This document shows, one piece after another, positions 7,246 to 64,000 of a stretch of 64,000 nt of DNA. The notes below the pieces were generated by a model. It saw only the letters and a list, made by a program, of their open reading frames with translations, searched no databases and was not told where the DNA came from. This DNA comes from Chitiniphilus eburneus (GTDB lineage: Bacteria; Pseudomonadota; Gammaproteobacteria; Burkholderiales; Chitinibacteraceae). Location: NCBI RefSeq assembly GCF_005048205.1, contig NZ_SUMF01000002.1, positions 428,873 to 492,872 on the forward strand, in the 5' to 3' direction. How positions within the stretch are numbered: the stretch's first letter is position 1; each line of letters begins with the position of its first letter. Position numbers and translations under genes: made by a program.

Positions 7246-7351
7246 GGGTATCGGATCGGGTGATAACGAACACTCGCTTGGTGATATGCCCTAGCGACGA
7301 GTGGCGAGCACGGTTATAACATCCGCCTATCGAAGTTGGAGAGTTCGCAGC

Positions 7352-8389: not shown

Positions 8390-8472
8390 TGCGGGAGGGC
8401 GGTGTGCTGGCCGCACCGCCGCGGGGCGTGTTCTAGACTTTCCGGTATCTGGAACCGCCGACTGGATTCTCC

Positions 8473-10212: not shown

Positions 10213-10230
10213 AAATCGAAGGAGCCCACG

Positions 10231-11235: not shown

Positions 11236-13002
11236 ATGGAACACGTCAACAAGACTACGGGATTCAACTGGGCCCGCTGGGCCACCTTGCTGGGCGCTAC
11301 CGCCGCCAGCATGATGTTCGTCGCCTGCGGTGGCGGCGGTGGTGGGGGCGGCAGCAGTGGCGGGGGTTCGGGCAGTGGCGGTGGTGGCGATACCGGCACC
11401 ATCGCCGGTGTGGCGGCGGTGACCGAGCCGATCGCCAACGGCACGCTGAAGGCCAAATGTGCCAGCGGCTACGAAGGCAGCGGTTCGACTGGCGCCGATG
11501 GCCGCTTCAGCATCGATGTACCGAGCACGGCCTTTCCCTGCGCCTTGCAGGTAAGTGGCGGCACCAGCGCCGGCAATGCCAATGCGCTGACGCTCCATAC
11601 GCTGGCGCCGCAGGCGGGTAGCTTCCGGCTGACCCCGCTGACCGATCTGATGCTGGTCATGGTCCACGGTAAGCAACCCACGACCTGGTTCGATGAACTG
11701 ACCGCTGCCGACCTGACCGCCGCCGTGGCCGGCGCGCCGACCGCCAATACTACCTTGTCGGATGCGCTCCGCCAGGAGGGCGCGCCGGTACCCACCGGTT
11801 TCAATGCCTTCACCGACGACTACGCACCGCTTGCCAGCAATCCGTACTATGCCCTGCTGGCTTCGTTGTTCAGTGGGCTGGAAACCAACGCGGCGGCGTA
11901 CCAGGCGCTGGTGGGGGTCTTCCTCGACGGCAGCGTGCTGCCGGGGGTGCCCACGCCTACGCCGACACCTGGTAGCGCCACGCCCACTCCTGCGCCCGGT
12001 AGCGCTACACCCACCCCGGCACCCGGTGTGCCGACCCCCACGCCCATACCAGGCGTGCCCACACCCACTCCTGCGCCCGGCACACCGACACCCACTCCGG
12101 TGCCCGGCGTGCCGACTCCCACACCCGTACCCGGAACGCCGACCCCCACGCCCACGCCGGGTGTTCCCACCCCGACGCCTGCACCCGGAACTGCCACCGC
12201 CATCGGTCTTGCCAAGTCGTTCGCGACCACGGGCCTCAGCGATGCCGACCAGATTCTCGACGTGTACGTCGGTACTTACCCGGTGGCGATCTATGACACG
12301 CCCGACGGCATGACCGGACAGATCGGCATGGCCGAGCTGACCGTGGCGCGCGAAGGCAGCGATACCTTGCGCATCACCCTGCGCGACGGTAACGGGCAGA
12401 CCCTTGCCACCATCGCCCAGCAGCGCCCCACATTGACGCTGGGCGTGGGCGGGTTGATCCAGTTGTTCGTCAATCTGGGGCAACTGGTAGTCATCAATAA
12501 CACTGCAGCGCCGTTCAGCCAGGCCAGCCTGACCTTTGGCGCCGATGGGCAGATCACGGGCGTGCTGACGATGGCCGGCTCGGGCCAGGTGCTGCGCTTG
12601 CGCAACAACATCGCTTATTACGGCACCGCGGTACCCAACACGCTGAAGAGTCTGATTGGCACCTGGCGCGGCAATTCGCTCAGCGGCTGCTTGTTGCAGA
12701 GCCCCATCGTGAACCTGACGGTAGGCGCCGGTGGCGATACCACGCTGGCGGGCGGTGGCGGCCTGCTATGCCTGCCCACCAGCGTCAGCGCGGTCTGGGA
12801 TGGGCGCGACGATTACATCGTCCCGACTACGGGCGGCAGCTATGAGATTGTCTTCGATGCTTCGCGCACCGGCGGTCTGCAAGCCGCAGGCAGTATCCGT
12901 ATCGGTATTCCCTCGCTGATGCCGGCCGCTGTCCTCCAGGCCAGCAGCAACCTGGCGCTGCTCGGTGGTCAGATCGCGGTGAACAACCCGGCCAAGCAAT
13001 GA
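11236..13002 (+). CDS. Secreted lipoprotein with Gly tract and Pro-Thr linker, function unknown
   Basis: The protein has 588 residues. A short n-region and hydrophobic stretch end in FVAC, a lipobox-like site with Cys31 as the lipidated residue, followed by an uninterrupted Gly/Ser tract. Residues about 50-236 form a first domain (an opening segment like a beta-sandwich carboxypeptidase-regulatory fold, GTIAGVAAVTEPIANGTLKAK). Residues 237-317 are nine 9-residue Pro-Thr units, and about 318-588 are a second beta-rich domain. ATG at 11236 is preferred because it leads directly into the signal peptide. I do not recognise either domain firmly. The linker resembles those of the two chitinases 7-10 kb downstream, suggesting a surface or polysaccharide-related role, but this is inference. 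Confidence 0.8.
   Translation: MEHVNKTTGFNWARWATLLGATAASMMFVACGGGGGGGGSSGGGSGSGGGGDTGTIAGVAAVTEPIANGTLKAKCASGYEGSGSTGADGRFSIDVPSTAFPCALQVSGGTSAGNANALTLHTLAPQAGSFRLTPLTDLMLVMVHGKQPTTWFDELTAADLTAAVAGAPTANTTLSDALRQEGAPVPTGFNAFTDDYAPLASNPYYALLASLFSGLETNAAAYQALVGVFLDGSVLPGVPTPTPTPGSATPTPAPGSATPTPAPGVPTPTPIPGVPTPTPAPGTPTPTPVPGVPTPTPVPGTPTPTPTPGVPTPTPAPGTATAIGLAKSFATTGLSDADQILDVYVGTYPVAIYDTPDGMTGQIGMAELTVAREGSDTLRITLRDGNGQTLATIAQQRPTLTLGVGGLIQLFVNLGQLVVINNTAAPFSQASLTFGADGQITGVLTMAGSGQVLRLRNNIAYYGTAVPNTLKSLIGTWRGNSLSGCLLQSPIVNLTVGAGGDTTLAGGGGLLCLPTSVSAVWDGRDDYIVPTTGGSYEIVFDASRTGGLQAAGSIRIGIPSLMPAAVLQASSNLALLGGQIAVNNPAKQ
11944..12186 (+). repeat. Coding minisatellite, nine 27-bp units
   Basis: Nine consecutive 9-codon units read G-(V/T/SA)-P/T-TPTP-x-P in the lipoprotein gene. 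Third-base differences show the units have diverged, but the period is exact. Such arrays change length by slippage or unequal recombination. They encode a flexible extended linker. Confidence 0.9.
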
Positions 13003-13075
13003 ACCGACGTCACTGGTCGGTGGCCACCCTCGCAGGGTTCGTCGGCAAGACCCGCACCTCCGCCGCACCTTGCTT

Positions 13076-13103
13076 CTGCCCGGGGCTTCCCGGGCAGTTT
13101 TTT
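13076..13103 (+). terminator. Rho-independent terminator of the lipoprotein gene
   Basis: A perfect 9-bp stem CTGCCCGGG / CCCGGGCAG with loop GCTT is followed by six T. It lies 74 bases after the lipoprotein stop. The remaining ~210 bases before the sensor gene at 13314 show no gene. Confidence 0.92.
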
Positions 13104-13313
13104 ATCCCGGGCCGTCGCGACGGATAGTCCGGGATTCACCGCCCCGCCAGTGGAAAAATCCGATTCTCAGGCGAGAAGAGCAATTACCTTGATCAATCGC
13201 CTGCCAACCACTGGATTTCGTTGGCTGGCCCATCAAGGGGGTGGGGATGGGCGGAAGGCTGGCGCGCATAGTGGGGCTACCTGCCGGTAATCCGGTGTAG
13301 TTCAGGGCACATC

Positions 13314-15467
13314 ATGCGCAGCTTTCTCCGCCGCGTTTCCGCGAATCGGCTCACCATTTTCCTGGCCGTGCTTTGTATCGGCCTGCTGTGTACGGCCATG
13401 CTGCATCTCTGGCTCTATCACACCCAGACGCGCATCGTGCAGGAGCGGCTGACCCAGCAGGCTGCGCTGGCGGCGGTCCGCCTGGAATCGCGCATGGAAC
13501 GCCTGAATGAAATGGTCCGAGGTATCCGTGGCGCCTTCCTGGTCGACCCCGATCTCGACGGCAAGGATTTCGTGCGCCTGCTACGGCAGCAGCGCCTGAC
13601 GCCTGAACTCGGCGATTACCTGATGGCGGCCTACATCCGCGAAGTTCCCGTCGACGAGGTCGCTGAGTTTCTGGCGAAGCGACACAATCCCGAACTCGGC
13701 GATGCCGGGCAGGTGACATTGCATGCGCCGGTCGCGCGCGAGAGCTATTACCTGATCGATTACCTCTACCCCGACAACGAGATCACCCGGGCCTACCAGG
13801 GGTTCGACATTGGGCAGGTGGTGGCACGGCGTCAGGCGCTGGAGTCCATCCGTGACCGAAACCAGCCCGTGTTGAGCCCGCCGATCACCTTGCTGGCATT
13901 GAAAATGCAACCCTTGGCGTTCGCGCTGCGTTACCCGGTGTATCACCCGGAGATGCCGCTTGATTCGGTGGGGCAGCGGCGCGAGGCATTCAATGGTTTC
14001 CTGTCGATCACCGTGCCATTGAGCAGTGTGACGCGCTGGGTGGAGCAGGCGCTGCCCGCCAATGTCCATTACTCGCTCTGGCAGACCTGGCAGGACCCCG
14101 CCTGGGGGGCGGCGACAAAGCCGACGCGCATGCTGGAAGGCGGGCAGAAGGCGCTACAGGGCGGATTACATAGCGAAGCGCTGGTCAACCAGCAGGGTGG
14201 CCAGTGGCGGCTGGTGCTCATTGAGACCCCGGCGAGCCGCGCGAACCTGCTCTGGGTCTGGCCCCTGGGGCTTGCCCTGAGCCTGCTGGCGGCACTGGCG
14301 GCAACCGTCGATCGCCCGCGGCAGGCGTCACGCGGGGGGGCGATTCCGGTGTCGCGGGGTGTCGAGCGCATCGTTACGCTGGTGGAGCATCTCCCAGCGA
14401 TGGTGGTGTTGCGCGATGCCGCCAATGTGGTGATCTACGGCAATCGGGCGGCGCAGGCCTGGCTGGGGGGCGATGTGCCGCTGCTGGGGCGCGAAGATGC
14501 GATCTGGAGCAGTGCCGAGCTGGACCCTGGCCCTGGGCAGGAAGCGCTGCATCTGGTCTTGCCCGACCGGCACGGCGAAGAACGCCACCTGGCATTGAAG
14601 ACGCTGCCGCTGTCGGGCTATCCGGGTCATCGCGTGGTGATCGTTCGCGATGTGACTGACGAACAGCAGCGTGAAGTGGAGCTGACGCTGCGTCGCCAGC
14701 GCATGTCCGAACTGCTGGAGATCGTCTGCGACTGGTATTGGGAGCTGGATACCGAACATCGCATCACCTACGTGTCGAGCAGCCAGTTTGCGCGGGCGGG
14801 GATCAATCTGAGCGCGTTGCTGGGCAAGCGAAGCTGGGAAATCGACGATGGCGGGCTGAGCCAGCAGGAATGGGATGCCCACCGGGAGCGGTTGGACCGC
14901 CGCCAGCCTTATCGCGACTTCATCCTGCGCGTGCCCCTGGAGGGCAGGCATTACATCGTCAGCCTGAGTGGCCGGCCACACTACGATTCGGCGGGGCGCT
15001 TCCAGGGCTATCGCGGCGTGGCGCGTGACGTGAGCGAATCCTTTACCTGGCGCGAACGGGTCCAGGTGGAGTCGGTGCGCTGCAAGCGCATGCTGGAGGC
15101 GCTGGGCGAGGGCCTGATCGGCATCGACGCGTCAGGGCGGGTGCAATACATGAATCCGGCCGCAGCGGCGTTGACCGGCTTTTCCAGCGAGGACGCCGCG
15201 GGCATGCCGATCGAGCGGGTGCTGGTGATGGTGGATACGGCGCGCGGCGTGCCGCTTCCCAATCTGTGCGGTCCATTGCTGCTCGGGCAGGCGCAGACGG
15301 TGCGCCCCCGACGTTGCGTGCTGTTGAACCGCTACAGCCTGCGGATCATGGTCGAGGAGTCGGCGGCCGCGATGCGTGACGATGGTGGCAACCTGGCCGG
15401 GGTGGTGATCACCTTCCGCGATGAAGGCGTACCGGAAAAGCTACCGGAGTTCGAGGCCACGGTGTGA
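13314..15467 (+). CDS. CHASE-domain membrane sensor with three PAS-like domains, no output domain
   Basis: The protein has 717 residues. An N-terminal membrane segment (about 13-32) leads to an extracytoplasmic CHASE domain (about 75-250; the SYYLIDYLYPDN block is typical), a second membrane segment (about 302-325), then three PAS/PAC regions (about 345-450, 465-590 and 590-705; VQYMNPAAAALTGFSSEDA lies in the third). In relatives this order ends in GGDEF, EAL or kinase domains, but here the frame stops right after the third PAS. The following bases encode no such domain in any frame. It is either a stand-alone sensory partner or a truncated gene. The frame itself has no internal break. Confidence 0.85.
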   Translation: MRSFLRRVSANRLTIFLAVLCIGLLCTAMLHLWLYHTQTRIVQERLTQQAALAAVRLESRMERLNEMVRGIRGAFLVDPDLDGKDFVRLLRQQRLTPELGDYLMAAYIREVPVDEVAEFLAKRHNPELGDAGQVTLHAPVARESYYLIDYLYPDNEITRAYQGFDIGQVVARRQALESIRDRNQPVLSPPITLLALKMQPLAFALRYPVYHPEMPLDSVGQRREAFNGFLSITVPLSSVTRWVEQALPANVHYSLWQTWQDPAWGAATKPTRMLEGGQKALQGGLHSEALVNQQGGQWRLVLIETPASRANLLWVWPLGLALSLLAALAATVDRPRQASRGGAIPVSRGVERIVTLVEHLPAMVVLRDAANVVIYGNRAAQAWLGGDVPLLGREDAIWSSAELDPGPGQEALHLVLPDRHGEERHLALKTLPLSGYPGHRVVIVRDVTDEQQREVELTLRRQRMSELLEIVCDWYWELDTEHRITYVSSSQFARAGINLSALLGKRSWEIDDGGLSQQEWDAHRERLDRRQPYRDFILRVPLEGRHYIVSLSGRPHYDSAGRFQGYRGVARDVSESFTWRERVQVESVRCKRMLEALGEGLIGIDASGRVQYMNPAAAALTGFSSEDAAGMPIERVLVMVDTARGVPLPNLCGPLLLGQAQTVRPRRCVLLNRYSLRIMVEESAAAMRDDGGNLAGVVITFRDEGVPEKLPEFEATV

Positions 15468-53469: not shown

Positions 53470-54183
53470 TCAATTGAGCAGGCCGAGCATCGCGGCGCGA
53501 ACCACGGCGGCCGTCTTGTTCGCGGTCTGCAATTTGGCCACCGCGTTCTTGATATGGAAATTGACGGTGTTTTCCGAAACGGAAAGGATATCGGAGATTT
53601 CGCCAGATGTTTTTCCGTCGCCGGTCCATTTCAGGATTTCGATTTCCCTGGCGGTGAGCGAAGGGGGCGCCGCCTTGCGCATCTCTGATTTATGCGCACT
53701 GGAAAGCGCCAGGTGCGTGATATTCACCAGCCAGCGCATCTTGAATTCTTTGCCGGCCAGTTCCTCGGGGGTGAGTATCTCGCCCGAGCGTGCCAGCGTC
53801 AGCATGCTGCCGACCCCCTGGGCATCCAGGCTGGACTGCGCCCAACCCACACACAAACCGAATGAATTCGCCTCTTCCCACAGTTTTGGCGCGTTGTGGA
53901 ACACTTCGCGTGACCAGACCAGCGGGGCTTGCGACTGACGGCCGTGCAACACTGAAGGATCGGAATCGAGATATCCGGCGGCGACATAACGCTGTTGCCA
54001 TTCGATAGGGTAATTGCTCTGGATGAAGGTACGGGGATTCGATAATGGCAATGGCAGGCGCAATCCATGCGCCACATAATCGAAACCCAATGCCGCGGCA
54101 GCGGTTTCAATCTTCTGGAAAGTCTGCGTTTCATCCTGAATGCCTTCCAGGCTGGATAGCAGATCTTCCGCCCAACTCTTCAT
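53470..54183 (-). CDS. LuxR-family quorum-sensing-type regulator (no luxI nearby)
   Basis: The 237-residue protein has an autoinducer-binding domain (about 20-160) and a LuxR helix-turn-helix (about 172-235; LTAREIEILKWTGDGKTSGEI, NTVNFHIKNAVAKL). The residues that contact N-acyl-homoserine lactones in the TraR/LasR family are present at matching spacing: Trp62, Tyr66, Asp75, Pro76, Trp90 (each five higher than TraR numbering). GGAG precedes the ATG. No AHL synthase is seen in the window, so it may be a LuxR solo or have luxI elsewhere. It is divergent from a biosynthetic cluster whose leader carries a lux-box-like palindrome. GC content dips here relative to the cluster. Confidence 0.92.
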   Translation of the reverse strand: MKSWAEDLLSSLEGIQDETQTFQKIETAAAALGFDYVAHGLRLPLPLSNPRTFIQSNYPIEWQQRYVAAGYLDSDPSVLHGRQSQAPLVWSREVFHNAPKLWEEANSFGLCVGWAQSSLDAQGVGSMLTLARSGEILTPEELAGKEFKMRWLVNITHLALSSAHKSEMRKAAPPSLTAREIEILKWTGDGKTSGEISDILSVSENTVNFHIKNAVAKLQTANKTAAVVRAAMLGLLN

Positions 54184-54301
54184 CCTGTTCTCCTCGCCAT
54201 CGCATTACGGTGCATTGCCGTTTCCAATGGGTGCAATCTTCAAATCCAGCGATCCGGCTCCCGGGGGGGAATGGACATGCTTCCTGCCGCATATTGCGCC
54301 G

Positions 54302-54320
54302 ATCAATCTTTCCGATTGAT
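54302..54320. promoter_or_regulatory. Perfect 7-bp inverted repeat near the luxR promoter
   Basis: ATCAATC and GATTGAT flank five bases, 120 bases upstream of the LuxR start in the 389-base divergent gap (54184-54572). It is a candidate operator for luxR or for another regulator. The remaining gap is AT-richer than the flanks and has no gene. Confidence 0.4.
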
Positions 54321-54489
54321 GAACCTGTCGAATAGCCATTCTAAAATCCCTGCACGATGCTAACACAAAGCGTTATGCGGATCGCATTGCAACGTGTGAC
54401 TTCAACATCATTTGCTGATGTAGAACTTACTTTGTATCCGATGATTTTCATGGGGGATGCCAGCACCAGCTTTCGCGAGGCAAGGATCA

Positions 54490-54534
54490 CTACCAGAGTT
54501 GGTAGCTTCGGACACCGTCGCTTTCCTGTTCAAT
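54490..54534 (+). promoter_or_regulatory. lux-box-like palindrome with downstream -10
   Basis: CTACCAGAGTTGGTAG (54490-54505) has the CT-N12-AG frame of LuxR-type boxes with perfect CTACCA/TGGTAG arms. TTCAAT (54529-54534) is a 4/6 match to the -10, 23 bases after the box, which puts the box over the -35 as in classical LuxR-activated promoters. The predicted start near 54541 leaves a ~30-base leader to the first cluster gene. Confidence 0.72.
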
Positions 54535-54572
54535 TCGCAGCAGTCGAATCAACACCTTGACGGGAAAGCAAC

Positions 54573-55955
54573 ATGTGCCTGCTGGCGGAATACCGCGTTA
54601 CCCAAGCTGCCTGCGCAACGGCCCGGCCGTTGTCCTTGGGCCGGGGTGCGCGCCGCGCGGCGGTGCTCCCGAGGGGGCTGTGCCGGCTCTGGACGGGTGG
54701 CGCGATTGTGGCGACGCTCGGCGCGCTGCTGGCGGCACCGTGCCGTGCCGCCGACGGCGAAGACTGGTTGCCGGACAGCGCCGACGTCCCTGTCATTGCC
54801 GCGCCCGACCCACAGACCGGCAAGCTGTTTCTCGAACTGGCGCTCAACCGCCTGTACCGGCATGCGCCGTTGGACGACACCTGGCACGGCAACCTGGGGC
54901 TGGATGGCTATGTCACGCGCCGGATCGGCGCCGACTGGCGCGCCACGCTCAATGTCCGCGTCGATGTGGATAGCGAACCGGGCGCCGGGCTGGATGCTGA
55001 CAACCTCAGCCTGACGTTGCGCGAGCTGTACGCCAGTCGCTCGGGTGACGACTGGGCGGTGAATATCGGCCGCATCAATATCCGCGATGGCGTCGCCACC
55101 GGCTTCAACCCGTCGGATGTGTTCCGCGACGGCGCGCTGCTGGCGCGCCGCACCGCCGACCCCGCCACCCTGCGCGAAAGCCGGCTGGGCGTGGTCGGCG
55201 TCCGGGCGCAGCACAGCCTGGCCGGCGGCACGCTGGCCGGCATGCTGGTGCCGGCGCTGTCCAACGGCACGCCCGAACATTGGTACGACCCGCGCTGGGG
55301 GGCCGTCAACGATGGCCAGGCCCAGGCCTACCTGATGTATGCGCTGCCGCGCTGGGAGGGGCTGTACAGCAACGTGGTGTTCCACGCGATGGATCACGGG
55401 GCGACCACCTGGGGCTTCAATCTCACCAACAACATAGGCCGCTCGGTGGTGGCGTATCTGGAATACGCCAATACCCGCCGCCCGCGCCTGCTCGATCTGG
55501 CCCAGGACGCCGATGCCGCGCCGCAACGCTATTCGCAGGCGGCCACCGGGTTTTCGTTCAGCACCGAGTGGAACCAGACCCTCACCGTCGAATACGACTA
55601 CAACGGCGGCGGCCTCGACCGCGACGACTGGCGCAACGCGTGGCAATCGCTGTCGCCGGCGCAGGTCGGCCGCGCGCTCGGCATCGCCGGCCAGCGCCAG
55701 GACCCGCTTACCGAACACAGCGTGATGGGCATGGTGCAGTGGGATCGCTTCCTTGCGCACGACGCCGATCTGAACTGCCTGATCCGCGCCAGCCTGGTGG
55801 ATGACAGCCGCTTCGCCTGGTGCGAGTGGCGCAACCGCTGGCCGCGTACCGAGCTGGCGCTCAGCGCGAGCTGGGCCGACGGCGATGCCAACTCCGAATA
55901 CGGCGCCGCCGGGCAAGCATGGATGCTTGCCGCGAAGCTCCGGGCGTACTTTTGA
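54573..55955 (+). CDS. Outer-membrane beta-barrel protein, first gene of the cluster
   Basis: The 460-residue protein has an unusually long basic n-region (about 1-40), a hydrophobic core (41-57) and probable cleavage near APCRA/ADG. The body is dominated by alternating amphipathic strands with aromatic girdle residues (for example GNLGLDGYVTRRIGADWRATL), and the last residue is Phe in LAAKLRAYF, the usual C-terminal signal of outer-membrane barrels. Substrate is unknown; a conduit for the cluster product is inference. A GGGAAAG ribosome site precedes the ATG. It lies 68 bases after the lux box. A shorter start at an internal GTG (codon 31) is possible. Confidence 0.72.
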   Translation: MCLLAEYRVTQAACATARPLSLGRGARRAAVLPRGLCRLWTGGAIVATLGALLAAPCRAADGEDWLPDSADVPVIAAPDPQTGKLFLELALNRLYRHAPLDDTWHGNLGLDGYVTRRIGADWRATLNVRVDVDSEPGAGLDADNLSLTLRELYASRSGDDWAVNIGRINIRDGVATGFNPSDVFRDGALLARRTADPATLRESRLGVVGVRAQHSLAGGTLAGMLVPALSNGTPEHWYDPRWGAVNDGQAQAYLMYALPRWEGLYSNVVFHAMDHGATTWGFNLTNNIGRSVVAYLEYANTRRPRLLDLAQDADAAPQRYSQAATGFSFSTEWNQTLTVEYDYNGGGLDRDDWRNAWQSLSPAQVGRALGIAGQRQDPLTEHSVMGMVQWDRFLAHDADLNCLIRASLVDDSRFAWCEWRNRWPRTELALSASWADGDANSEYGAAGQAWMLAAKLRAYF

Positions 55956-56120
55956 GGGCCGGGAAATGAGTCCATCGACATCAAGCACCCGGCAAAGCCG
56001 GCTGCATGAAACGACACCGGCATCGGCCGTTTCCGGCCGATCCCACTGCCCTCTCGAACAGGTCTCGCGTTGCCCGGCGATACGCCCGGTCGACCGCACG
56101 CCGCGCGCCGGAGTTGCGCG

Positions 56121-56939
56121 ATGATCGACTGTCTTCCCGTCCGCGAAACCCCGGCACTCGATGTCGATCCAGCGTGGCGCGCCTTGCAGGACCTCGCCCG
56201 CGCCGAAGCGGCCCGTGATCCGCTGCTGCGCAGCTTTCTCGATGCCGCCGTGCTGTCGCATCCCGACCTGGGCCACGCGCTGGCGGCGTTGCTGGCCGAC
56301 TTGCTCGCCAATCGCCACCTCGACGCCGCGCGGCTGCGTACGTTGATCCTCGACATCTACGCCGACGCGCCTAGCTTGGTGCGCGCCGCGCAATCCGACC
56401 TGGACGCCGTGGCCGCCCGCGATCCGGCGACCCGCGATCCGCTGGCGCCGCTGCTGTTCTACCGGGGCTATCGCGCCTTGCAGTCGCAGCGCATCGCGCA
56501 CTGGCTGTGGGGGCGCGAGCGCCACTCGCTGGCGTTGTGGGTGCAGAGTCGCAGCGTCGAACTGTTCTCCATCGACATCCATCCCGCCGCGCGCATCGGC
56601 GAGCGCGTGATGCTCGACCACGGTACCGGCATCGTCATCGGCGAAACCGCCGTGATCGAAGACGATGTGTCCATCCTGCACGGCGTCACCCTGGGTGGCA
56701 CCGGCAAGGCCGCGCAGGACCGCCATCCCAAAGTGCGGCGCGGCGTGATGATCGGCGCTGGCGCCAAGGTGCTCGGCAATATCGAAGTGGGCGAGGGCGC
56801 GCGTGTCGCCGCCGGCTCCATTGTCCTCAAGCCTGTGCCGCCGCATGCCACCGTGGCCGGTGTGCCCGCGCGGGAGGTCGAACGCGTCGGCAACATCTGG
56901 CCCGCGCTCGACATGCGCCAGACCCTGGTCACGGAGTGA
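56121..56939 (+). CDS. cysE: Serine O-acetyltransferase (CysE type)
   Basis: A 272-residue enzyme, the same length as E. coli CysE. The N-terminal helical domain (about 1-145) is followed by the left-handed beta-helix of hexapeptide repeats (about 150-245). Catalytic residues are visible in SIDIHPAARIGERVMLDHGTG (Asp and His) and the acetyl-CoA loop TLGGTGKAAQDRHPKVRRGVMIG. It would make O-acetylserine from serine and acetyl-CoA. Here it sits inside a polyketide/fatty-acid-type cluster with no other cysteine genes, so the acceptor may differ from serine. GGAG lies 9 bases before the ATG. A hairpin (56022-56041) stands in the gap before it. Confidence 0.92.
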   Translation: MIDCLPVRETPALDVDPAWRALQDLARAEAARDPLLRSFLDAAVLSHPDLGHALAALLADLLANRHLDAARLRTLILDIYADAPSLVRAAQSDLDAVAARDPATRDPLAPLLFYRGYRALQSQRIAHWLWGRERHSLALWVQSRSVELFSIDIHPAARIGERVMLDHGTGIVIGETAVIEDDVSILHGVTLGGTGKAAQDRHPKVRRGVMIGAGAKVLGNIEVGEGARVAAGSIVLKPVPPHATVAGVPAREVERVGNIWPALDMRQTLVTE

Positions 56940-56946
56940 AGGCGCG

Positions 56947-57753
56947 ATGACGACCGAACGCTACGTCCTGCTGAGCCATCGCCACCCCGGCCGCGCGGGA
57001 TCGCCCGACGTACCGGTGCGCCTGGTGGCCTATGGGTTTGCCGGGGGAACCGTCACCGCACTGCTGCCACTGTTGCGGCATCTGCCGCCGGGCATCGAAG
57101 TCTGGGGCGCCGAATATCCCGGCCGGGGCCTGCGCTGGCGCGAGCCGCTGCTCGACCGCGCGGCCGACGTCATCGACGACCTGCTGCCCGGCCTGCAACG
57201 TCTGGCCGACCGACCGCTGGCGCTGCTCGGCTACAGCATGGGCGCGCACTTCGCCTACCGGCTTTCGCTGGCTGCCGCCTTCGCACCGCTAGGCCTGGTC
57301 GCGATCAGCGCCCGCGCGCCGGGTGGCGTCGTGGTGGCGCCCTCCTGGTCCGAACTGGACGACTCCGATCTGCTGCGCCGGTTGCGTGCCCTCGGTGGCA
57401 TGCCGGACGAGGTGCTGGAGAACCCGGTGATGCGCGATGCCTTCCTGCCGGTGGTCCGTGCCGATCTCGCCTGCTGCCGCAGCCTGGAACGTCTGCCGGT
57501 ACGGCCGGCACCGTGCCCGGTGCTGGCGCTGCGCGGCGACGCCGACCCACTGCTCACCCCATCCGATCCCGCGCAATGGCTGGCGCTGGCGCCGCGTCGC
57601 GCCAATGCCACGCGGCGCTATCCGGCGGGGCACTTCATCCACCCCGGGCGCGAAGCGCAGGTGGCTTCCGACATCGCCACCTGGCTGGCGCGTGCCACGT
57701 CGCCCGCCACCGACCACAACCCCGCCTTGCTGGCGGCATCAACCAGAAGGTAA
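56947..57753 (+). CDS. Type II thioesterase (GrsT/TEII family)
   Basis: A 268-residue alpha/beta-hydrolase. The nucleophile is Ser97 in LLGYSMGAHFAYRL; the acid is in LRGDADPLLTP and His in PAGHFIHPG. RLVAYGFAGGTVTALLPLLRHLP at the front (LxxFPxAGG-like) and WGAEYPGRGLRW are typical of stand-alone thioesterases that remove stalled acyl groups from carrier proteins of PKS or NRPS systems. AAGG lies 6 bases before the ATG; the stop of cysE is 8 bases upstream. It may edit the carrier encoded directly downstream. Confidence 0.93.
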   Translation: MTTERYVLLSHRHPGRAGSPDVPVRLVAYGFAGGTVTALLPLLRHLPPGIEVWGAEYPGRGLRWREPLLDRAADVIDDLLPGLQRLADRPLALLGYSMGAHFAYRLSLAAAFAPLGLVAISARAPGGVVVAPSWSELDDSDLLRRLRALGGMPDEVLENPVMRDAFLPVVRADLACCRSLERLPVRPAPCPVLALRGDADPLLTPSDPAQWLALAPRRANATRRYPAGHFIHPGREAQVASDIATWLARATSPATDHNPALLAASTRR

Positions 57754-57760
57754 CGACGAC

Positions 57761-58012
57761 ATGTCCCACCGCCCCACCGTACTCGCCGCGTTCTGCGACG
57801 CGGTCAACGCCCTCAAGAAAACCGCCTTCGACGCGGATCGCATCGACCCCGCGCTCTACCTGGGCGGCGACCTGGGCATCGACTCCATCGAAATGCTGGA
57901 GATCTGGTTCCGCATCGAACGCAGTGTCGGCGCGCGCATCCCGGACGATGCCAAGCGCGACATCTATACGGTCGGCGAGGTGGCTGCCGTGGTCGAGGGC
58001 GCGCTGGCCTGA
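57761..58012 (+). CDS. Acyl carrier protein (first of two)
   Basis: An 83-residue acidic four-helix protein. The phosphopantetheine site is Ser42 in GDLGIDSIEMLEIWF, a PKS-like rather than FAS-like motif (canonical FAS ACP reads ADSLD). It begins 8 bases after the thioesterase stop. It must be activated by a phosphopantetheinyl transferase encoded elsewhere. Confidence 0.93.
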   Translation: MSHRPTVLAAFCDAVNALKKTAFDADRIDPALYLGGDLGIDSIEMLEIWFRIERSVGARIPDDAKRDIYTVGEVAAVVEGALA

Positions 58013-58030
58013 CGCCGGCACGGCCGGTAT

Positions 58031-58080
58031 CGGCCCGATCGAGCGCGGCCCGGCCTGACCCGGCGCCGTGGATCGGGCCG
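58031..58080 (+). other. Intra-operon hairpin before the SDR gene
   Basis: CGGCCCGATC and GATCGGGCCG form a perfect 10-bp stem around a 30-base GC-rich loop within the 93-base gap after the first ACP gene. It could attenuate transcription or protect mRNA. Confidence 0.5.
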
Positions 58081-58105
58081 GGTAACCGCTTCTGAAGGAA
58101 TGGAC

Positions 58106-59014
58106 ATGTTCAGGAATGATCTCTTCGAAGGCCACGTTGCCTTCGTCACCGGTGGCGGCAGCGGCCTGGGCCGCGCCATCGCCGAGCACCTGGTGCGACA
58201 TGGCGCGCGCGTGGCCATCGTCGGCCGCCGCGAGGATGTGCTGGCGCAGACCGCGCGCGAACTGGGCGCCGAGCGCGTGCTGCCGGTGCGCTGCGACATC
58301 CGCTTCGCCGATGAGGTGGAGGATGCCGTGGCCCACACGCTGGCGCACTTCGGCCGCATCGACAGCCTGGTGAACAGCGCGGCCGGCAACTTCGTCGCGC
58401 CCACCGAACGGCTCAGCAACAACGCCTTCAAGCTGATCGTAGATACGGTGCTGATGGGCACCGTGCATTGCACGATGACGCTGGGCAAGCACTGGATCGA
58501 ACGCGGCCAGCGCGGCAGCGTGCTCAGCATCAGTACCAACTACGCCAGTACCGGTTCCGCCTTCGTCGTGCCGTCCGGCTGCGCCAAGGCTGGCGTGGAA
58601 AACCTGATCAAGTCGCTCGCCGCCGAATGGGGCCGCTACGGCCTGCGCTTCGTCGGCATCTCGCCCGGCCCGTTTCCCACGGATGGCGCCATGGCGCAGT
58701 TGCGCATCCATGAGGACCTGCTGCCCGGTGTGGACATCGCCGCGATGATCACCGAGCGCATCCCCATGGGCCGCCTGGGCAAATTGCAGGAACTGGCCGA
58801 CCTCGCGCTGTTCCTGCTCAGCCCCAATGCCGAATACATCAACGGCGAAATCATCCGCATCGATGGCGGAGAAACCCCCAACCTCGCCGGCGAGTTCAGT
58901 TTCATGCGTGACGTGCCGGCCGAGGTCTGGGAACAGAAGGCCGGTGGATTGAAGCGTCAGCAGCCTCGTTCCGCCCACCCCACGTTGGCCACCGTCGGCA
59001 ACGTCTCACCCTGA
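58106..59014 (+). CDS. SDR oxidoreductase of the 2,4-dienoyl-CoA reductase (DECR) group
   Basis: A 302-residue short-chain dehydrogenase. The cofactor motif is VTGGGSGLGRAIAEHLV and the NAG-like motif SAAGNFVAP. The usual YxxxK is replaced by a distal arrangement: Tyr in STNYASTGSAFVVP and Lys in PSGCAKAGVENL, the layout of mammalian DECR1-type dienoyl reductases, together with the ISPGPFPTDGA segment. It should act on conjugated enoyl/dienoyl thioesters with NADPH. ATG at 58106 has GAAGGA six bases upstream; an ATG at 58100 is possible. It lies between the two ACP genes, suggesting ACP-bound substrates. Confidence 0.88.
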   Translation: MFRNDLFEGHVAFVTGGGSGLGRAIAEHLVRHGARVAIVGRREDVLAQTARELGAERVLPVRCDIRFADEVEDAVAHTLAHFGRIDSLVNSAAGNFVAPTERLSNNAFKLIVDTVLMGTVHCTMTLGKHWIERGQRGSVLSISTNYASTGSAFVVPSGCAKAGVENLIKSLAAEWGRYGLRFVGISPGPFPTDGAMAQLRIHEDLLPGVDIAAMITERIPMGRLGKLQELADLALFLLSPNAEYINGEIIRIDGGETPNLAGEFSFMRDVPAEVWEQKAGGLKRQQPRSAHPTLATVGNVSP

Positions 59015-59036
59015 TCGACCCAACCGAGGAACCACC

Positions 59037-59288
59037 ATGAATGCCACGCAAGAACGCATCGTCGAAATCTGTCTGCAAGTCATCGAAATGGATCGCGCCG
59101 AAATAGGCCTGAACGACGAGTTTCGTTCGTTCGCCCACATCGATTCGCTCAAGTCGCTCGATCTGATGACCGCGCTGGAACGCGAATTCAAGCTGAAGCT
59201 GCCCGAAGCGGAACTGCGCGAATTCGAAACCATCGCCAAGGTGATCGCCGTCGTCGAGCGGTATCTGCCCGAAACCGTCGCCGCCTGA
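59037..59288 (+). CDS. Acyl carrier protein (second)
   Basis: An 83-residue protein with the phosphopantetheine Ser37 in HIDSLKSLDLMTALE. It is only distantly similar to the first ACP, so the two probably serve different enzymes (for example starter loading and chain extension). GAGGA precedes the ATG. A 105-bp tandem duplication follows directly. Confidence 0.92.
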   Translation: MNATQERIVEICLQVIEMDRAEIGLNDEFRSFAHIDSLKSLDLMTALEREFKLKLPEAELREFETIAKVIAVVERYLPETVAA

Positions 59289-59308
59289 TTGCCCAGGACG
59301 AATGCCGG

Positions 59309-59518
59309 GCGCATTGCGGCGTTGCATCTCGCTAACGGGGGAAAAGCCCCGTGTCGCTCGGTGCGCCTTGCACTGCATCCCGGCCTTCGTCCCGGACCCG
59401 GAATCTGCGCCGAGCGCATTGCCGCGTTGCACCACGCTGGCGGGGAAAAGCCCCGCGTCGCCCGGTGCGCCTTGCACTGCATCCCGGCCTTCGTCCCGGC
59501 TTCCGGCGCCTGCGCCAA
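59309..59518 (+). repeat. Two tandem ~105-bp repeats inside the cluster
   Basis: Units begin at gcgcattgc (59309 and 59414) and share ggggaaaagcccc and gtgcgccttgcactgcatcc with few changes. The core folds as GCGGGG-aaaag-CCCCGC in the second unit. The 326-base gap (59289-59614) stays open in more than one frame, but the internal repetition makes protein coding unlikely. The family looks like a dispersed extragenic repeat. Confidence 0.8.
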
Positions 59519-59614
59519 GCCCGTTGTCCCGCGACCGCAGCGCGCTTTGCCCAGGTTCCGCCCTCCGGCGGTTGTGAAAAGACTTTAAACAGGCTTCCAG
59601 CCAAGGAATCGAAC

Positions 59615-60637
59615 ATGCGCGTCCTTCTCACCGGCGCCACCGGCTTTGTCGGCCTCAACATCGTCCAGGCGCTACATGCGGCCGGGCACGACGTGCTCTG
59701 CCACGTACGCCCGCAGGCGCGGCGGCAATACCTGGATCGCCTGCCGGTCGCCGTCGTTGCCGGGCAACTGGGCGACGTGCCCGGGCTGGCCGCCGCCATG
59801 CGCGGCATCGATGCGGTGATCCATACCGCTGGCGATACCAGTTGCCTGCCGTGCGACCTGCCGCGCCTGACCGAAACCAACGTCGAAGGCACCCGCGCGG
59901 TGCTGGAGGCGGCGCGCCGCAGCGGTGTGCGGCGCGTGGTGTACACCAGCACCACGTCCACCATCGGCTCCACCGAAACGCCGGGCATGGCGGCCGACGA
60001 AACCATGCCGTTGCAGGCATGGCGCGCCGCGTCGCCCTATGGCCGCACCAAGCTGGCCGCCGAAACGCTGGTACGCGAAGCGCGCGGCGTGGAAGGCATC
60101 GTGCTCAACCCGGCCGAGGTGCTGGGCGCGTGGGATCACACGCTGCAATGGGGGCGCATCGTGCTCGCCGTTGCCAGTGGCCGCCTGCCGTTCATGCCGC
60201 CCGGCAGCGGCACCTTCGCGCCGGCCGCCGACGTGGCCGATGCCCACGTCGCCGCGCTGACGCGGGGCGTGCCGGGCGAGCGCTACATCCTGGGCGGACA
60301 CCACCTGACTTTTACCCGCCTGATCACCGAAATGGCCATTGTCACCGGCGGCAGCGCCGCGCCGCTGTCGCGCCGGCCGTACGCGCTGCAACGGCTGGAG
60401 GCACAACTGCGCCAATGGCTGCCGCCGCTGGCGCCGCCCGCGGTCGATGCCTATCGCATGCGCGTGTTCGGCGGGCACCACCTGTTCGACGACGGCAAGG
60501 CCCGCCAGCACCTGGGCTATGGCGCCCAGCCCATCCGGCAGGCCATCGAAGCGTGCTTCGCCTGGTATCGCGAACACGGCTTCCTGCCCGCCGCGCCGGA
60601 TACCCCGATCAACACTCCCCAATGGAAAACAGCATGA
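59615..60637 (+). CDS. NAD-dependent epimerase/dehydratase-like (extended SDR)
   Basis: A 340-residue extended-type SDR. The cofactor motif is [14 protein letters not shown], and the catalytic pair is Tyr/Lys in [14 protein letters not shown] with Thr/Ser in [10 protein letters not shown]. The layout resembles dihydroflavonol reductase and HpnA-type enzymes, which reduce or isomerise a carbonyl on a small molecule. AAGGA precedes the ATG. Its stop overlaps the FabG start (ATGA), so it is translationally coupled to the chain-elongation genes. Substrate unknown; a role on the finished or released chain is inference. Confidence 0.88.
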
Positions 60638-61389
60638 GCGACATCAACGAACAGCAGGCGCCGCAGCCGGTGGCGCTGGTCACCGGCGGCTCGCGCGGCG
60701 TCGGCGCCGCCATCGTGCGCGCGCTGCACGGCCAGGGCTGGCGCGTGGCCTTCACTTACCTGGGCAACGAAGCGCGGGCGCGCGAACTGGTGGACGAACT
60801 GGGCGAAACGCGCCTGCTGGCGATGCGCGCCGATGCGCGCGATCCGGCCAGCGCCGGCACGATGCTGGGGCGCACCCTCGCCCGGTTCGGCCAACTGGAT
60901 GCGCTGGTCAACAATGCCGGCGTCACGCGCGACGGCTCCATCCTGATGATGAACGAGGACGACTGGCGCGAGGTGCTTTCGGCCAATCTGGACGGCGCCT
61001 TCCACACCTGCAAGGCGGTGATCCCCACCTTCCTCAAGCAACGTGCCGGCGCCATCGTCAATGTGTCGTCGGTGGCCGGCGTGGTCGGCGTGCCGGGGCA
61101 GGCCAACTATTGCGCCAGCAAGGCCGGCCTGATCGGCATGTCGCGCGCCCTAGCGCTGGAGTGCGCCGGCCGCAATGTCCGCGTCAACGTCGTGGCGCCC
61201 GGCTTCATCCGCACCGACATGACCGATGCGCTGAACGAGCGCCAGCAGGCCGACGCCATGGCGCGCATTCCCCTCAAGCGTTTTGGCGAAGCGGCCGAGG
61301 TGGCCAGCCTGGTCGCCTTCCTGCTGTCGCCCGGCGCGTCCTATGTCACCGGCCAGGTGTTCGTCGTCGATGGGGGGCTGACGACATGA
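60634..61389 (+). CDS. 3-oxoacyl-ACP reductase (FabG-like ketoreductase)
   Basis: A 251-residue classical SDR. NADPH motif [30 protein letters not shown], catalytic Ser in [10 protein letters not shown] and Tyr/Lys in [13 protein letters not shown], then the C-terminal [12 protein letters not shown]. These are standard FabG features. It reduces the beta-keto group after each condensation. Both ends overlap neighbours by ATGA junctions (with the epimerase and the dehydratase). Confidence 0.95.
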
Positions 61390-61895
61390 GCGATCCCGCC
61401 CTGCTCGATATCGACCCGCTGACGTTGCCGGTGGCCGATGTGATCCCGCATCGCGCGCCTTTCCTGCTGATCGACACCGTGACCGAAGGCGTGCCCGGCG
61501 AATGGGCCAGCGCGCGCTACACGGTGCAATCCGACAACCCGGTGCTGCGTGGCCATTTTCCCGGCGAGCCGGTGTTTCCCGGTGTGCTGCTGCTGGAAAA
61601 CATGGCGCAGACCGCCTGCTGGGTGATGGCGTCGGCCGAGCTGGCCGAGCGCGGGCTGTACGTGCTGGTGCGCGTCACCCAGAGCACGTTCCAGCAGATG
61701 GTGCGCCCCGGCGATGTGCTGATCACCCACGCCCGGCTGAGCCGCCGGCTGGAGCAGTTCTCGCAGTTCGAATGCGACATCACGGCGGCCGGGCGCCGCG
61801 TGGCGAGCGCGGAGCTGCTGGTATCGCGGCGGGCGAAAGCGCCGCAGTCGCTTCCCCAACCCGTGTCGTCAACGCAAGCAGAGAGGCACTCATGA
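61386..61895 (+). CDS. 3-hydroxyacyl-ACP dehydratase (FabZ-like, hot-dog fold)
   Basis: A 169-residue protein. The active-site loop [21 protein letters not shown] contains His57 and the catalytic Glu71 equivalent; [15 protein letters not shown] is the usual FabZ opening strand. It dehydrates the beta-hydroxyacyl intermediate to an enoyl chain. It begins on the last bases of the ketoreductase gene and its own stop overlaps the ketosynthase start. Confidence 0.93.
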
Positions 61896-63121
61896 AATCA
61901 GCAAATCCCCCGCGCATCGTCGTCACCGGCATGGGCGCGGTGACCACCATCGGCCGCGATGTGCCGACCTTTTTCGCCAACGCGTTGGCGGGTGCCATCG
62001 GCATCAGCGCGGTACGCGGCATCGACGTATCGCGGATGAACTCCGATCGGGGCGGCGAGGTGCACGATTTCGATATCGCCGAGCACTTTCCCGGCCGCGC
62101 CGATCTGGCGCAACTGGGCCGCGCCAAGCAACTGGCGCTGGCGGCGGCGCGGCAGTGCGTCGAGGACGCCGGCTTTCCCATTGCCGAGCACGCGTTCGAT
62201 GTCGGCGTGGCACTGGGCTACACGCAGGGTGAATCCAAGGAACTGGAGTTCTGCTGCGACCAGATTGCCGCCGGCCGCCTGGACGACGAGGGCTTGCGCG
62301 CCTTCGCCGGCTACGCGCCGCAGACCGTATCGCAGGGTATCGGCCATGAGTTCGGCGCTTGCGGGCCGATGATCACCATCGGCAACGCCTGCTCCGCCAG
62401 CAACTTCGCCATTGGTGCCGCCATCGACCTGATGCGGCGTGGCGACGCGGTGGCGATGATCGTTGGCGGTGCCGATGCGTTCTCGCGCTACGGCTATGCC
62501 GGGTTCTCGCGCCTCGGCGCCATCGCACCGGACGTGCCCCGTCCGTTCAGTCGCGATCGCCAGGGTATGGTGCCGGCCGAAGGCGCGGCGATGCTGTTCA
62601 TCGAAACGCTGGACAGCGCGCTGGCACGTGGCGCCGTCATCCATGCCGAGATCACCGGCTATGGCGAAAGCTGCGACGCCCACCATATCACCCAGCCCAA
62701 CCCGGCCGGCATCGCCCAGGCCGCGCGTGCCGCGCTCGACAGCGCGCAACTGGCGCCGGAGGCCGTCTGCTACCTGTCGGTGCACGGCACCGGCACCCAG
62801 GCCAGCGACAAGGTCGAATCGGCCGCCTTTACCCAGTTGTTCGGCGAGCGCATCCCGCCGCTGTCGTCGGTGAAATCGATGGTCGGCCACGCCATGGGCG
62901 CCGCCAGCGCCATCGAATGTGTCGCCGCTGTTTCCTCGCTCAAGGCGCAGGTGCTCACGCCGACCATGAACCACCTTGGCCCGGACGAGCAATGCCCCGT
63001 CGATTGCGTGCCGCTCCAGGCGCGCCCGGCGCGCGTGCGCAACGTGCTCAAGACAGCCTCCGCCTTCGGCGGCAACAACGCCGTCGTGCTGTTCCGCCAA
63101 TACCCCGCACAGGAAGACTGA
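61892..63121 (+). CDS. Ketosynthase, catalytically complete (KS-alpha/FabF-like)
   Basis: A 409-residue thiolase-fold condensing enzyme. The catalytic triad is intact: Cys167 in TIGNACSASNFAIG, His298 in LSVHGTGTQASDKVE and His333 in KSMVGHAMGAASAIE. The protein starts IVVTGMGAVTTIG, as FabF does. It extends an acyl chain with a malonyl-ACP unit. GAGAGG lies 8 bases before the ATG, and the next gene starts 2 bases after its stop, so the pair is probably a KS-alpha/KS-beta heterodimer. The motif ACSASN differs from the housekeeping TACASG. Confidence 0.95.
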   Translation: MKSANPPRIVVTGMGAVTTIGRDVPTFFANALAGAIGISAVRGIDVSRMNSDRGGEVHDFDIAEHFPGRADLAQLGRAKQLALAAARQCVEDAGFPIAEHAFDVGVALGYTQGESKELEFCCDQIAAGRLDDEGLRAFAGYAPQTVSQGIGHEFGACGPMITIGNACSASNFAIGAAIDLMRRGDAVAMIVGGADAFSRYGYAGFSRLGAIAPDVPRPFSRDRQGMVPAEGAAMLFIETLDSALARGAVIHAEITGYGESCDAHHITQPNPAGIAQAARAALDSAQLAPEAVCYLSVHGTGTQASDKVESAAFTQLFGERIPPLSSVKSMVGHAMGAASAIECVAAVSSLKAQVLTPTMNHLGPDEQCPVDCVPLQARPARVRNVLKTASAFGGNNAVVLFRQYPAQED

Positions 63122-63123
63122 CC

Positions 63124-64000
63124 ATGCATGCCGAACTCGTCATCACCGGCGCTGCCGCGCTGTCGCCCTATGGCCTGGGCGTGGAAGCACTGATCGAGGG
63201 CCTGCGCGCCGCGCCGCCCGCCTATGCCCCGGTGGACGGCGCCCTGTGCGACGGCCCGGCCGTGGCCCGGGTGCCCGACTACGACGCGCGCGAGTTGCTC
63301 GCCACGCGCAGCGTCGCCAACTTCGACCGCCTGACGCTGCATGTCTGCGCCGCCGCCACCCAACTGCACCAGCGCATGGGGCTGGCCGACACCGCCGCGC
63401 GCCAGGCGCAGGTGCCGGACGAGCGCGTCAGCCTGGTGCTGGGCAGCAGTGGTCCGCTGCAAAGCGTGCTGGCGTTCGACCTGCAGGCCATCGAAGAGCC
63501 GCGGTATGTCCAGCCCAGCATCTATCCCAACGTGGTGTTCAACGTGCCGGCGAGCTATGCCGCCATTCGCCACACCATCCGTGGCAGTTGCATCACGCTG
63601 ACCGACGGTGACGCATCCGGCCTGATCGCGTTCTCGGTGGCCGCAGCGCAACTGGAATCCGGCCGCATCGACCTTGCTCTGGTGGGGGCGGCCGAAGAGG
63701 CCACTCCCGCCTACGCGCTGTACCGCCACAGTCTGGCGCACCAGGCCGGCGTGCCAGCGCAGCCGCAGGTGGAAGGCGCCGCGCTGCTGGCGCTGGAAAC
63801 CGCCGGACAGGCGCAGCGTCACGGTCGCGCCACGCTGGCTGGCGTCTTCGGCTGCGCCCACGTGTATGCGCCGGGCCGCGCCGAACAGGGGCTGGCCGCG
63901 TGCCTGGACAAACTGCGTCGCCGCTTCGGCACGCTGCTGGACGAAGTGGGCACCGTGGCGCTGGCGCCGGAACTGGACGCCGCCGCGCTGGGCCTGGGCG
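63124..64000 (+). CDS. Ketosynthase-like KS-beta/chain-length-factor protein, 3' end missing
   Basis: The open frame runs to the window edge (292 codons seen). It begins VITGAAALSPYGLGVEAL like a ketosynthase and has the LVLGSSGPLQSVLAFD and SIYPNVVFNVPASYAA segments. The active-site loop reads TLTDGDASGLIAFSVA: Asp163 stands where the nucleophilic Cys of FabF (Cys163) should be. It therefore cannot form the acyl thioester and fits the chain-length-factor/KS-beta role, as in type II PKS and in aryl-polyene systems (where CLF carries Gln or another residue). Asp at this site is unusual. It starts 2 bases after the active ketosynthase. Confidence 0.85.
   Translation, partial: MHAELVITGAAALSPYGLGVEALIEGLRAAPPAYAPVDGALCDGPAVARVPDYDARELLATRSVANFDRLTLHVCAAATQLHQRMGLADTAARQAQVPDERVSLVLGSSGPLQSVLAFDLQAIEEPRYVQPSIYPNVVFNVPASYAAIRHTIRGSCITLTDGDASGLIAFSVAAAQLESGRIDLALVGAAEEATPAYALYRHSLAHQAGVPAQPQVEGAALLALETAGQAQRHGRATLAGVFGCAHVYAPGRAEQGLAACLDKLRRRFGTLLDEVGTVALAPELDAAALGLG

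Follow-up and report, generated by a model that had tools for sequence, protein, structure and literature searches.

The window analysed here, a stretch of 64,000 nucleotides of Chitiniphilus eburneus (contig NZ_SUMF01000002.1, positions 428,873 to 492,872), ends in a gene cluster in which a type II polyketide synthase (PKS) is encoded together with nonribosomal peptide synthetases (NRPSs), the first of them headed by a FAAL domain, beside a LuxI/LuxR pair. Judged by the predicted proteins, its parts are of known kinds, and in our literature searches their combination matched no described pathway. We give about an even chance to the reading that this is a quorum-gated type II PKS-NRPS hybrid cluster, likely making and exporting an unsaturated short peptide with an amino-lipid tail.

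The window is the end of contig C12 of this genome (492872 bases; C12:428873-492872), and window base 64000 is the last contig base, so that only half of the cluster was visible to an earlier reading made from the window alone (the sequence-only reading). That reading described a luxR gene divergent from a same-strand set running from a beta-barrel protein to a second ketosynthase-like protein (KS-beta; KS, ketosynthase), and all the genes it named were found, at the coordinates and on the strands of Table 1. Its description of a LuxR-linked, type II PKS-like set is supported, but its proposal of a polyene or specialised lipid was incomplete. Two NRPSs, the first of them FAAL-led, an alpha-oxoamine synthase and ABC/FtsX/LolA-like proteins are encoded in the missing half, and from these the predicted lipid most likely serves as a building block for a lipopeptide.

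The missing half of the cluster

The nearest relative of the KS-alpha (91% identity) belongs to Chitiniphilus shinanonensis DSM 23277, a member of the window organism's own genus. There the cluster is unbroken, spans about 33 kb and contains 24 genes, with luxR at one end and luxI at the other. The genes 3′ of KS-beta encode an AMP ligase, an acyl-CoA-dehydrogenase-like protein (dehydrogenase 1) and an alpha/beta hydrolase; next come NRPS1, NRPS2, an ABC ATPase, an FtsX permease and a LolA-like protein; and the final block holds a pyridoxal phosphate (PLP) enzyme, a second dehydrogenase-like protein (dehydrogenase 2) and a phosphopantetheinyl transferase (PPTase), followed by LuxI on the opposite strand.

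All 24 genes have a counterpart in the window genome, spread over three contigs (C12, C64 and C10). C64 (3129 bases) carries the end of KS-beta, the AMP ligase (79% identity to C. shinanonensis) and the greater part of dehydrogenase 1 (71%). Reading the end of C10 backwards gives first 63 columns that match the final part of dehydrogenase 1 and then the hydrolase (80%), NRPS1 (75%), NRPS2 (79%), ABC ATPase (93%), FtsX permease (89%), LolA-like protein (90%), PLP enzyme (89%), dehydrogenase 2 (61%), PPTase (74%) and LuxI (74%). The sequence-only reading had suggested looking beyond base 64000 for AMP ligase and glycosyltransferase genes; the AMP ligase is present in C. shinanonensis and on C64, but no glycosyltransferase was found in the cluster proteins scanned with Pfam. 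The first approximately 64 bases of C64 gave no KS-beta match though the match begins directly after them, possibly an assembly-end artefact.

Ketosynthase pair, reductases and peptide synthetases

KS-alpha keeps the Cys, the two His and the Lys (C167, H298, K328 and H333), which we take to have the usual catalytic roles. For KS-beta we aligned 39 rows, namely 38 protein matches (one from Streptomyces) and the C. shinanonensis copy. None has the Cys or either His at the KS active-site columns, with one gap at each His column, and the Lys column holds a gap or another residue. A stand-alone KS-alpha with Cys-His-His and an adjoining Cys-less KS-beta is the arrangement of a type II PKS, as the sequence-only reading had it. 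Among solved structures, KS-alpha is closest to 9s5h_B (316.8 bits) and then 6kxd_A (283.9 bits), and KS-beta, searched with the complete C. shinanonensis copy, to 6kxd_B (75.5 bits, best) and 9s5h_C (55.9 bits). The structure listing names 6kxd only as Ketosynthase; it is presumably the Iga11/Iga12 ishigamide polyene pair.

The short-chain dehydrogenase/reductase (SDR) that had been called 2,4-dienoyl-CoA-reductase (DECR)-type was confirmed as such, its top solved relatives being Decr1 (244.2 bits) and mitochondrial 2,4-dienoyl-CoA reductase (242.4 bits), with the next SDR at 190.

NRPS1 was read as FAAL-T-C-A-T-C (T, carrier; C, condensation; A, adenylation), that is, a FAAL domain, then a carrier and C-A-T. 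The matches of its N-terminus are led by FAAL-type solved structures. Pfam gave two AMP-binding, two carrier and three Condensation stretches, the last read as two C domains by means of two HHxxxDG motifs. NRPS2 was read as A-T-E (E, epimerization). Its C-terminus matches the C/E-superfamily regions of bacitracin, pyoverdine, tyrocidine and gramicidin S synthetases and carries the motifs HHLVVDAHCW and NYLG-FD, which we take to be those of an epimerase. No thioesterase or reductase domain was detected on NRPS1 or NRPS2 in the Pfam scan, so that a separate release enzyme is required. In A-domain alignments to linear gramicidin synthetase, judged by eye, the specificity residues of NRPS2 seemingly differ between Chitiniphilus and Lautropia; no amino acid is claimed. 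More NRPS-type frames are present on contigs C5, C20, C48 and C54 of the window genome, with a KS domain on C5.

Putative quorum circuit

In C. shinanonensis, LuxI (Autoind_synth, 103.1 bits) and LuxR (Autoind_bind, 121.3 bits) lie at opposite cluster ends. The gap between luxR and the operon is 389 bases long in the window, and it contains CTACCAGAGTTGGTAG at 54490-54505, which is the same in C. shinanonensis although only 54% of the columns across the gap are identical. The best kept 30-base stretches of the gap lie directly downstream of it, at 54512-54552. Both species also carry CTACCAGATATGGTAG, with the same half-sites as the operon box, at the luxI 5′ end. The general pattern CTACCANNNNTGGTAG (CTACCA-N4-TGGTAG, zero mismatches) was found at these two sites only, both in the window genome and in the C. 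shinanonensis genome, and at none in a third genome of the genus, where a KS-beta match was also not found. The luxI gene at the far end and the matching palindromes strengthen the idea of quorum-sensing control, which had been put forward from luxR, and they may be lux boxes of one circuit. Perfect CT...AG 6-4-6 dyads as such occur once in the 64-kb window, about what simple arithmetic gives by chance, and were not used as evidence alone.

A DUF4902 gene (74.1 bits) is the same-strand neighbour of luxI, and the predicted lux box lies between the two; in C. shinanonensis the same frame was recognised upstream of luxI, though only by eye.

The PLP enzyme and its solanimycin-type relatives

The PLP enzyme gave scores in the BioF/Kbl/SPT (alpha-oxoamine synthase) family, below every family cut-off. 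Among the best 120 of its 476 relatives, 27 are at 69–90% identity and the rest at 58–67%, the latter including proteins from Dickeya, Lysobacter, Collimonas, Erwinia ErVv1, Rouxiella and others. In passages of PMC9765074, several of these taxa are mentioned in connection with the solanimycin cluster or figure in its table of genes.

The cluster enzyme is 61% identical to the Dickeya protein over 414 aa. Between the Dickeya and L. enzymogenes proteins, identity is 76% and similarity 90%, against 77/89 as published for SolC and its L. enzymogenes homologue in the cited part of PMC9765074, which makes the Dickeya protein very probably SolC or a close orthologue. According to passages of PMC9765074 and PMC10204066, loss of solB, solC or solI abolishes antifungal activity, and the solB mutant accumulates a pigment to which the authors assign a polyenyl aminomethyl ketone.

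Because of its family membership, and because the scan of the cluster proteins turned up no P450, we infer that the cluster enzyme forms a carbon-carbon bond instead of transaminating. This negative makes a solanimycin-type route unlikely here; it does not by itself prove carbon-carbon bond formation.

Distribution and conservation

The cluster was found to extend beyond the genus. In a Lautropia metagenome-assembled genome (MAG), 20 genes are colinear with it over two contigs, with a luxR in addition at the other end. Contig 1 carries, up to its end, the genes for the barrel, the thioesterase, the acyl carrier protein (ACP) ACP1, the DECR-type SDR, ACP2, the extended SDR, FabG, FabZ and KS-alpha. 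Contig 2 (22.6 kb) carries those for KS-beta, the AMP ligase, dehydrogenase 1, the hydrolase, NRPS1, NRPS2, the ABC, FtsX and LolA-like proteins, the PLP enzyme and dehydrogenase 2 (a weak match, E 7e-7), in the same order and on the same strand as in Chitiniphilus, and luxR then follows. Judged from gene order, this colinearity marks a gene set that is more than chance. No CysE, PPTase or LuxI match (E up to 1e-4) was found in 11.3 of the 62.2 kb of contig 1 and the whole of contig 2. In a Desulfobacula MAG, ten genes from ACP1 to dehydrogenase 1 occur in order, followed at the contig end by the FAAL start of an NRPS. A MATE-type transporter precedes this Desulfobacula cluster (by eye; locus 1-1353), and the solanimycin cluster has a MATE pump, SolL, at its end.

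We compared 55 loci of KS-alpha relatives, dropping matches with less than 40% query coverage or E above 1e-10. Only three carry the set of ACP, DECR-type SDR and extended SDR: C. shinanonensis and the Lautropia and Desulfobacula MAGs. Paenibacillus, Chloroflexi and other loci (KS-alpha identity 33–41%) do not carry this set and were ruled out as the same cluster.

Upon a protein search with KS-beta, 7998 candidates were scored and 38 proteins retained, 37 at 40–100% identity and the Streptomyces protein at 33%. Within the group of 37, the named organisms are limited to C. shinanonensis and Oxalobacteraceae bacterium GrIS 1.11. Of the 27 barrel proteins, five seem to share contigs with KS-beta proteins, as suggested by longest contigs of 22735, 22232, 21240, 26684 and 26420 bases in both lists; the other 22, including the window's own and one from Variovorax dokdonensis, have no such pairing.

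KS-beta was found in 1 of 369 genomes of the class, in 2 of 399 of the order (both Chitiniphilus) and in 1 of 74 of the family of the Lautropia MAG, the MAG itself. At E 1e-100 or better, the PLP enzyme was found in one of the 369 class genomes, the window's own. Plasmids gave 41 matching records for KS-beta, none covering more than 80% of the query, and 663 for the PLP enzyme and 257 for the extended SDR, all below 60%. At about 8.1–9.1 kb of two alphaproteobacterial MAG loci, a PLP-enzyme relative (34–36%) lies near a KS relative (35–36%).

Proposed pathway and alternatives

We propose the following route. The LuxI signal would bind LuxR and switch on luxI and the operon. The AMP ligase would load a starter acid on an ACP, and the acyl-CoA-dehydrogenase-like proteins would desaturate it. 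The KS pair, FabG and FabZ would then extend the chain into conjugated double bonds, of which the DECR-type SDR would remove or shift one. The SolC-like PLP enzyme could add an aminated carbon unit, whose ketone the extended SDR would reduce, giving a beta-hydroxy-alpha-amino lipid. The FAAL domain would load this lipid, and the NRPSs would add two residues, the last one in the D form. Release would be by the type II thioesterase or the alpha/beta hydrolase, and the ABC/FtsX pump, the LolA-like carrier and the barrel would carry the product across the envelope.

Several observations weigh against this route. The contig ends share no overlap, so the order of C12, C64 and C10 is taken from C. 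shinanonensis. For SolC, passages of PMC9765074 and PMC10204066 give the authors' own route as P450 oxidation and transamination, and report that glycine feeding left the SolC-derived unit of solanimycin unlabelled, which speaks against glycine as the partner. CTACCAGATATGGTAG shares bases with the opening codons of the longest reading frame of luxI, and it is upstream of luxI only if translation begins further in; we take the true start to lie further inside this frame. In the Lautropia stretches examined, no CTACCA palindrome and no luxI match were found, only two other CT...AG dyads, and LuxR is at the opposite end. Finally, a reversed control pattern occurs 5 times in the window genome, 7 times in C. 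shinanonensis and 6 times in the third genome of the genus. As it is commoner than the palindrome, the counts alone prove nothing, and the case rests on place and conservation.

The strongest alternative keeps the hybrid and puts the PLP enzyme last. Through decarboxylative condensation with an amino acid it would free the finished lipopeptidyl chain from the NRPS as a peptidyl aminoketone, whose lipid lacks an amino group. The enzyme's alpha-oxoamine synthase family and the place of its gene 3′ of the NRPSs in the Chitiniphilus and Lautropia clusters agree with this, as does the need for a release enzyme after the C/E-type end of NRPS2. However, the cluster has a free type II thioesterase and a hydrolase besides, and the authors of the solanimycin work placed the 61% identical solanimycin-type enzyme at the lipid end of that compound, in the passages cited. 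We consider this alternative unlikely, if worth keeping in view.

LuxR and LuxI might instead regulate something else, with the cluster constitutive or under another regulator. The displaced luxR of Lautropia, where the stretches examined have neither luxI nor the palindrome, and the commoner control pattern fit this idea, but in each of the two species the palindromes with these half-sites are confined to the operon and luxI positions, and the operon site is unchanged although the gap as a whole has only 54% identity. We regard it as improbable.

We think it possible, though on balance doubtful, that an undescribed cluster family in Chitiniphilus, Oxalobacteraceae, Lautropia-type and mostly uncultured bacteria builds a chain on a stand-alone type II PKS instead of a modular one, edits its double bonds with a mitochondrial-type dienoyl-reductase, converts it with a SolC-like enzyme into a sphingoid-like amino acid, caps it with a D-ended dipeptide by a FAAL-NRPS, and secretes it at quorum through a Lol-like pump and its own OprD/AlgE-type barrel.

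Known bacterial lipopeptides mostly use ready-made fatty acids or modular-PKS chains. Here, a cultured betaproteobacterium seemingly has a dedicated type II PKS that feeds an NRPS and is under quorum control, and the predicted promoter sites point to a way of switching the cluster on, namely added acyl-homoserine lactone (AHL). The cluster also offers a second, independent setting in which to decide whether SolC-like enzymes are transaminases, as in the solanimycin proposal, or carbon-carbon-bond-forming alpha-oxoamine synthases, as their family suggests. As no described match for the gene set was found in our searches, the product would be worth isolating.

Gene layout, predicted export set and CysE

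The features of the window part of the cluster are listed in Table 1. Several ATGA overlaps had been described between its genes, and three were found among the nine junctions inspected (extended SDR/FabG, FabG/FabZ and FabZ/KS-alpha). The gap between ACP2 and the extended SDR (59304-59499) contains two direct-repeat families with copies 104–105 bases apart (58 nt at 97%; 46 nt at 80%).

Table 1. Predicted features of the cluster within the window.
Feature	Position	Strand	Evidence and remarks
LuxR-type AHL receptor/regulator, divergent from operon	53470..54183	-	Pfam Autoind_bind 112.9 bits, GerE 65.4 bits; 88% identical to C. shinanonensis copy
Predicted lux box, perfect 6-4-6 dyad CTACCA-GAGT-TGGTAG (CTACCAGAGTTGGTAG)	54490..54505	no strand	luxR-operon gap
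Outer-membrane beta-barrel, OprD/AlgE-type fold, start codon uncertain	54573..55955	+	Fold searches
Second CysE-type serine acetyltransferase	56121..56939	+	TIGR01172 229.6 bits, above cut-off
Type II thioesterase	56947..57753	+	PF00975 73.1 bits; 46% homologue in Lautropia cluster
ACP1	57761..58012	+	No Pfam match; NCBIfam ACP matches below cut-off; LGIDSIEM; kept in Lautropia and Desulfobacula MAGs
DECR-type SDR	58100..59014	+	Solved relatives; homologues 73% (Lautropia MAG), 57% (Desulfobacula MAG)
ACP2	59037..59288	+	PF00550 42.1 bits
Extended SDR (3-beta-HSD/OleD-like), predicted beta-keto reductase	59615..60637	+	PF01370 114.5 bits, PF01073 79.6 bits; HpnA/SdmB/OleD models below cut-off
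FabG-type ketoreductase, ATGA overlap	60634..61389	+	TIGR01830 295.3 bits, just below cut-off of 297.75
FabZ/FabA-like dehydratase, ATGA overlap	61386..61895	+	PF07977 62.7 bits; ApeP-like 19.9 bits, cut-off 27
KS-alpha, 409 aa, C167/H298/K328/H333	61892..63121	+	PF00109, PF02801; catalytic residues by motif
KS-beta (chain length factor, CLF), truncated by contig end	63124..64000	+	Remainder on contig C64

Three adjacent export genes match PF00005 (ABC ATPase), PF02687 (FtsX-type permease) and PF17131 (LolA-like carrier); the permease scores 81.6 bits with the lolCE model, below its cut-off. From their predicted functions, these proteins and the barrel likely export the product.

A stronger cysE is present elsewhere in the window genome (C3:34656, 247.1 bits vs 230.8 for the cluster copy), so the cluster CysE is a second copy. 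The sequence-only reading had counted this serine acetyltransferase into the set. It is indeed found in both Chitiniphilus clusters but not in the core shared with the Lautropia MAG, and from this pattern it looks like an accessory gene.

Comparison with known systems

Aryl polyene clusters contain KS/CLF, ACPs, FabG, a dehydratase and a LolA-like protein, all of which the present cluster shares; by definition they have an MMPL exporter and no NRPS. The present cluster differs by its two NRPSs and its PLP alpha-oxoamine synthase, its dehydratase is under the ApeP-like cut-off (19.9 vs 27 bits), and no MMPL was found in the cluster proteins scanned with Pfam, so an aryl polyene identity was rejected. 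The window genome has another KS pair, on C10 at about 3803-14488, with 4HBT, LolA_3, MMPL-like (19.1 bits, just below cut-off), ApeP-like dehydratase (62 bits, cut-off 27) and FabG-like neighbours, the last of these read by eye. This is presumably how an aryl-polyene-type cluster should look, and it is distinct from the window cluster; the sequence-only reading was right to set the latter apart from aryl-polyene sets. It is very doubtful that the cluster makes a membrane or pigment lipid of aryl-polyene or specialised fatty-acid type and that the adjoining NRPS genes form a cluster of their own. Its KS/CLF, FabG, FabZ and ACPs do resemble such clusters, and its KS pair has a close relative of polyene type. 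Against this, Chitiniphilus and Lautropia have the NRPS genes next in an unchanged order, the Desulfobacula set runs on into the start of a FAAL-led NRPS, the dehydratase fails a cut-off that the other KS cluster of the genome well exceeds, and neither MMPL nor glycosyltransferase was found among the scanned proteins. Nor does the cluster look like the housekeeping fatty-acid set: these are not the only KS genes of the genome, which has eight KS-family matches (e.g. C45:40283 at 192.6 bits), and no fabD or fabH was found among the cluster proteins scanned.

The ishigamide-type type II PKS (Iga11/Iga12, 6kxd), which we take to come from an actinomycete, likewise has a stand-alone KS-alpha and a Cys-less KS-beta. 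The present set departs from it in its DECR-type SDR, its AMP ligase, its pair of acyl-CoA-dehydrogenase-like proteins and its FAAL-led NRPS, and in its occurrence beside LuxR/LuxI in Gram-negative bacteria.

Literature searches, with subscription journals largely outside them, gave no described pathway with this gene set, in keeping with the earlier statement that no known pathway matched. AFC-BC11 of Burkholderia was tried for its link between FAAL, lipopeptide and quorum and rejected, as its assembly is without condensation domains according to passages of PMC12186527. Tundrenone was considered as an unusual metabolite under quorum control; the passages searched in PMC6977074 do not give its cluster genes. 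In a survey of luxR-linked biosynthetic clusters of Proteobacteria, luxI was found in 47% of the clusters (parts of PMC5872303); the present cluster is like these in having a luxR and a luxI of its own. Nowhere in the main text of that survey do the words 'type II', 'aryl polyene', 'lux box' or 'Chitin-' occur.

The solanimycin cluster of Dickeya is the partial homologue that we keep. As described in passages of PMC9765074 and PMC10204066, a polyunsaturated chain feeds an NRPS there as well, and the cluster has the SolC-like PLP enzyme, a free ACP, AHL control and SolB, an NAD-dependent epimerase/dehydratase-type SDR. The likeness of SolB to our extended SDR is at the level of the broad family (NAD-dependent epimerase). 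In the same passages, solanimycin's own features are the trans-AT type I PKS SolA, the P450, three NRPSs and the MATE pump. Solanimycin was rejected as the same pathway, as no modular PKS was found among the cluster proteins scanned; the present cluster has in contrast a KS/CLF set of type II, a FAAL for loading and a group of ABC, FtsX, LolA-like and barrel proteins.

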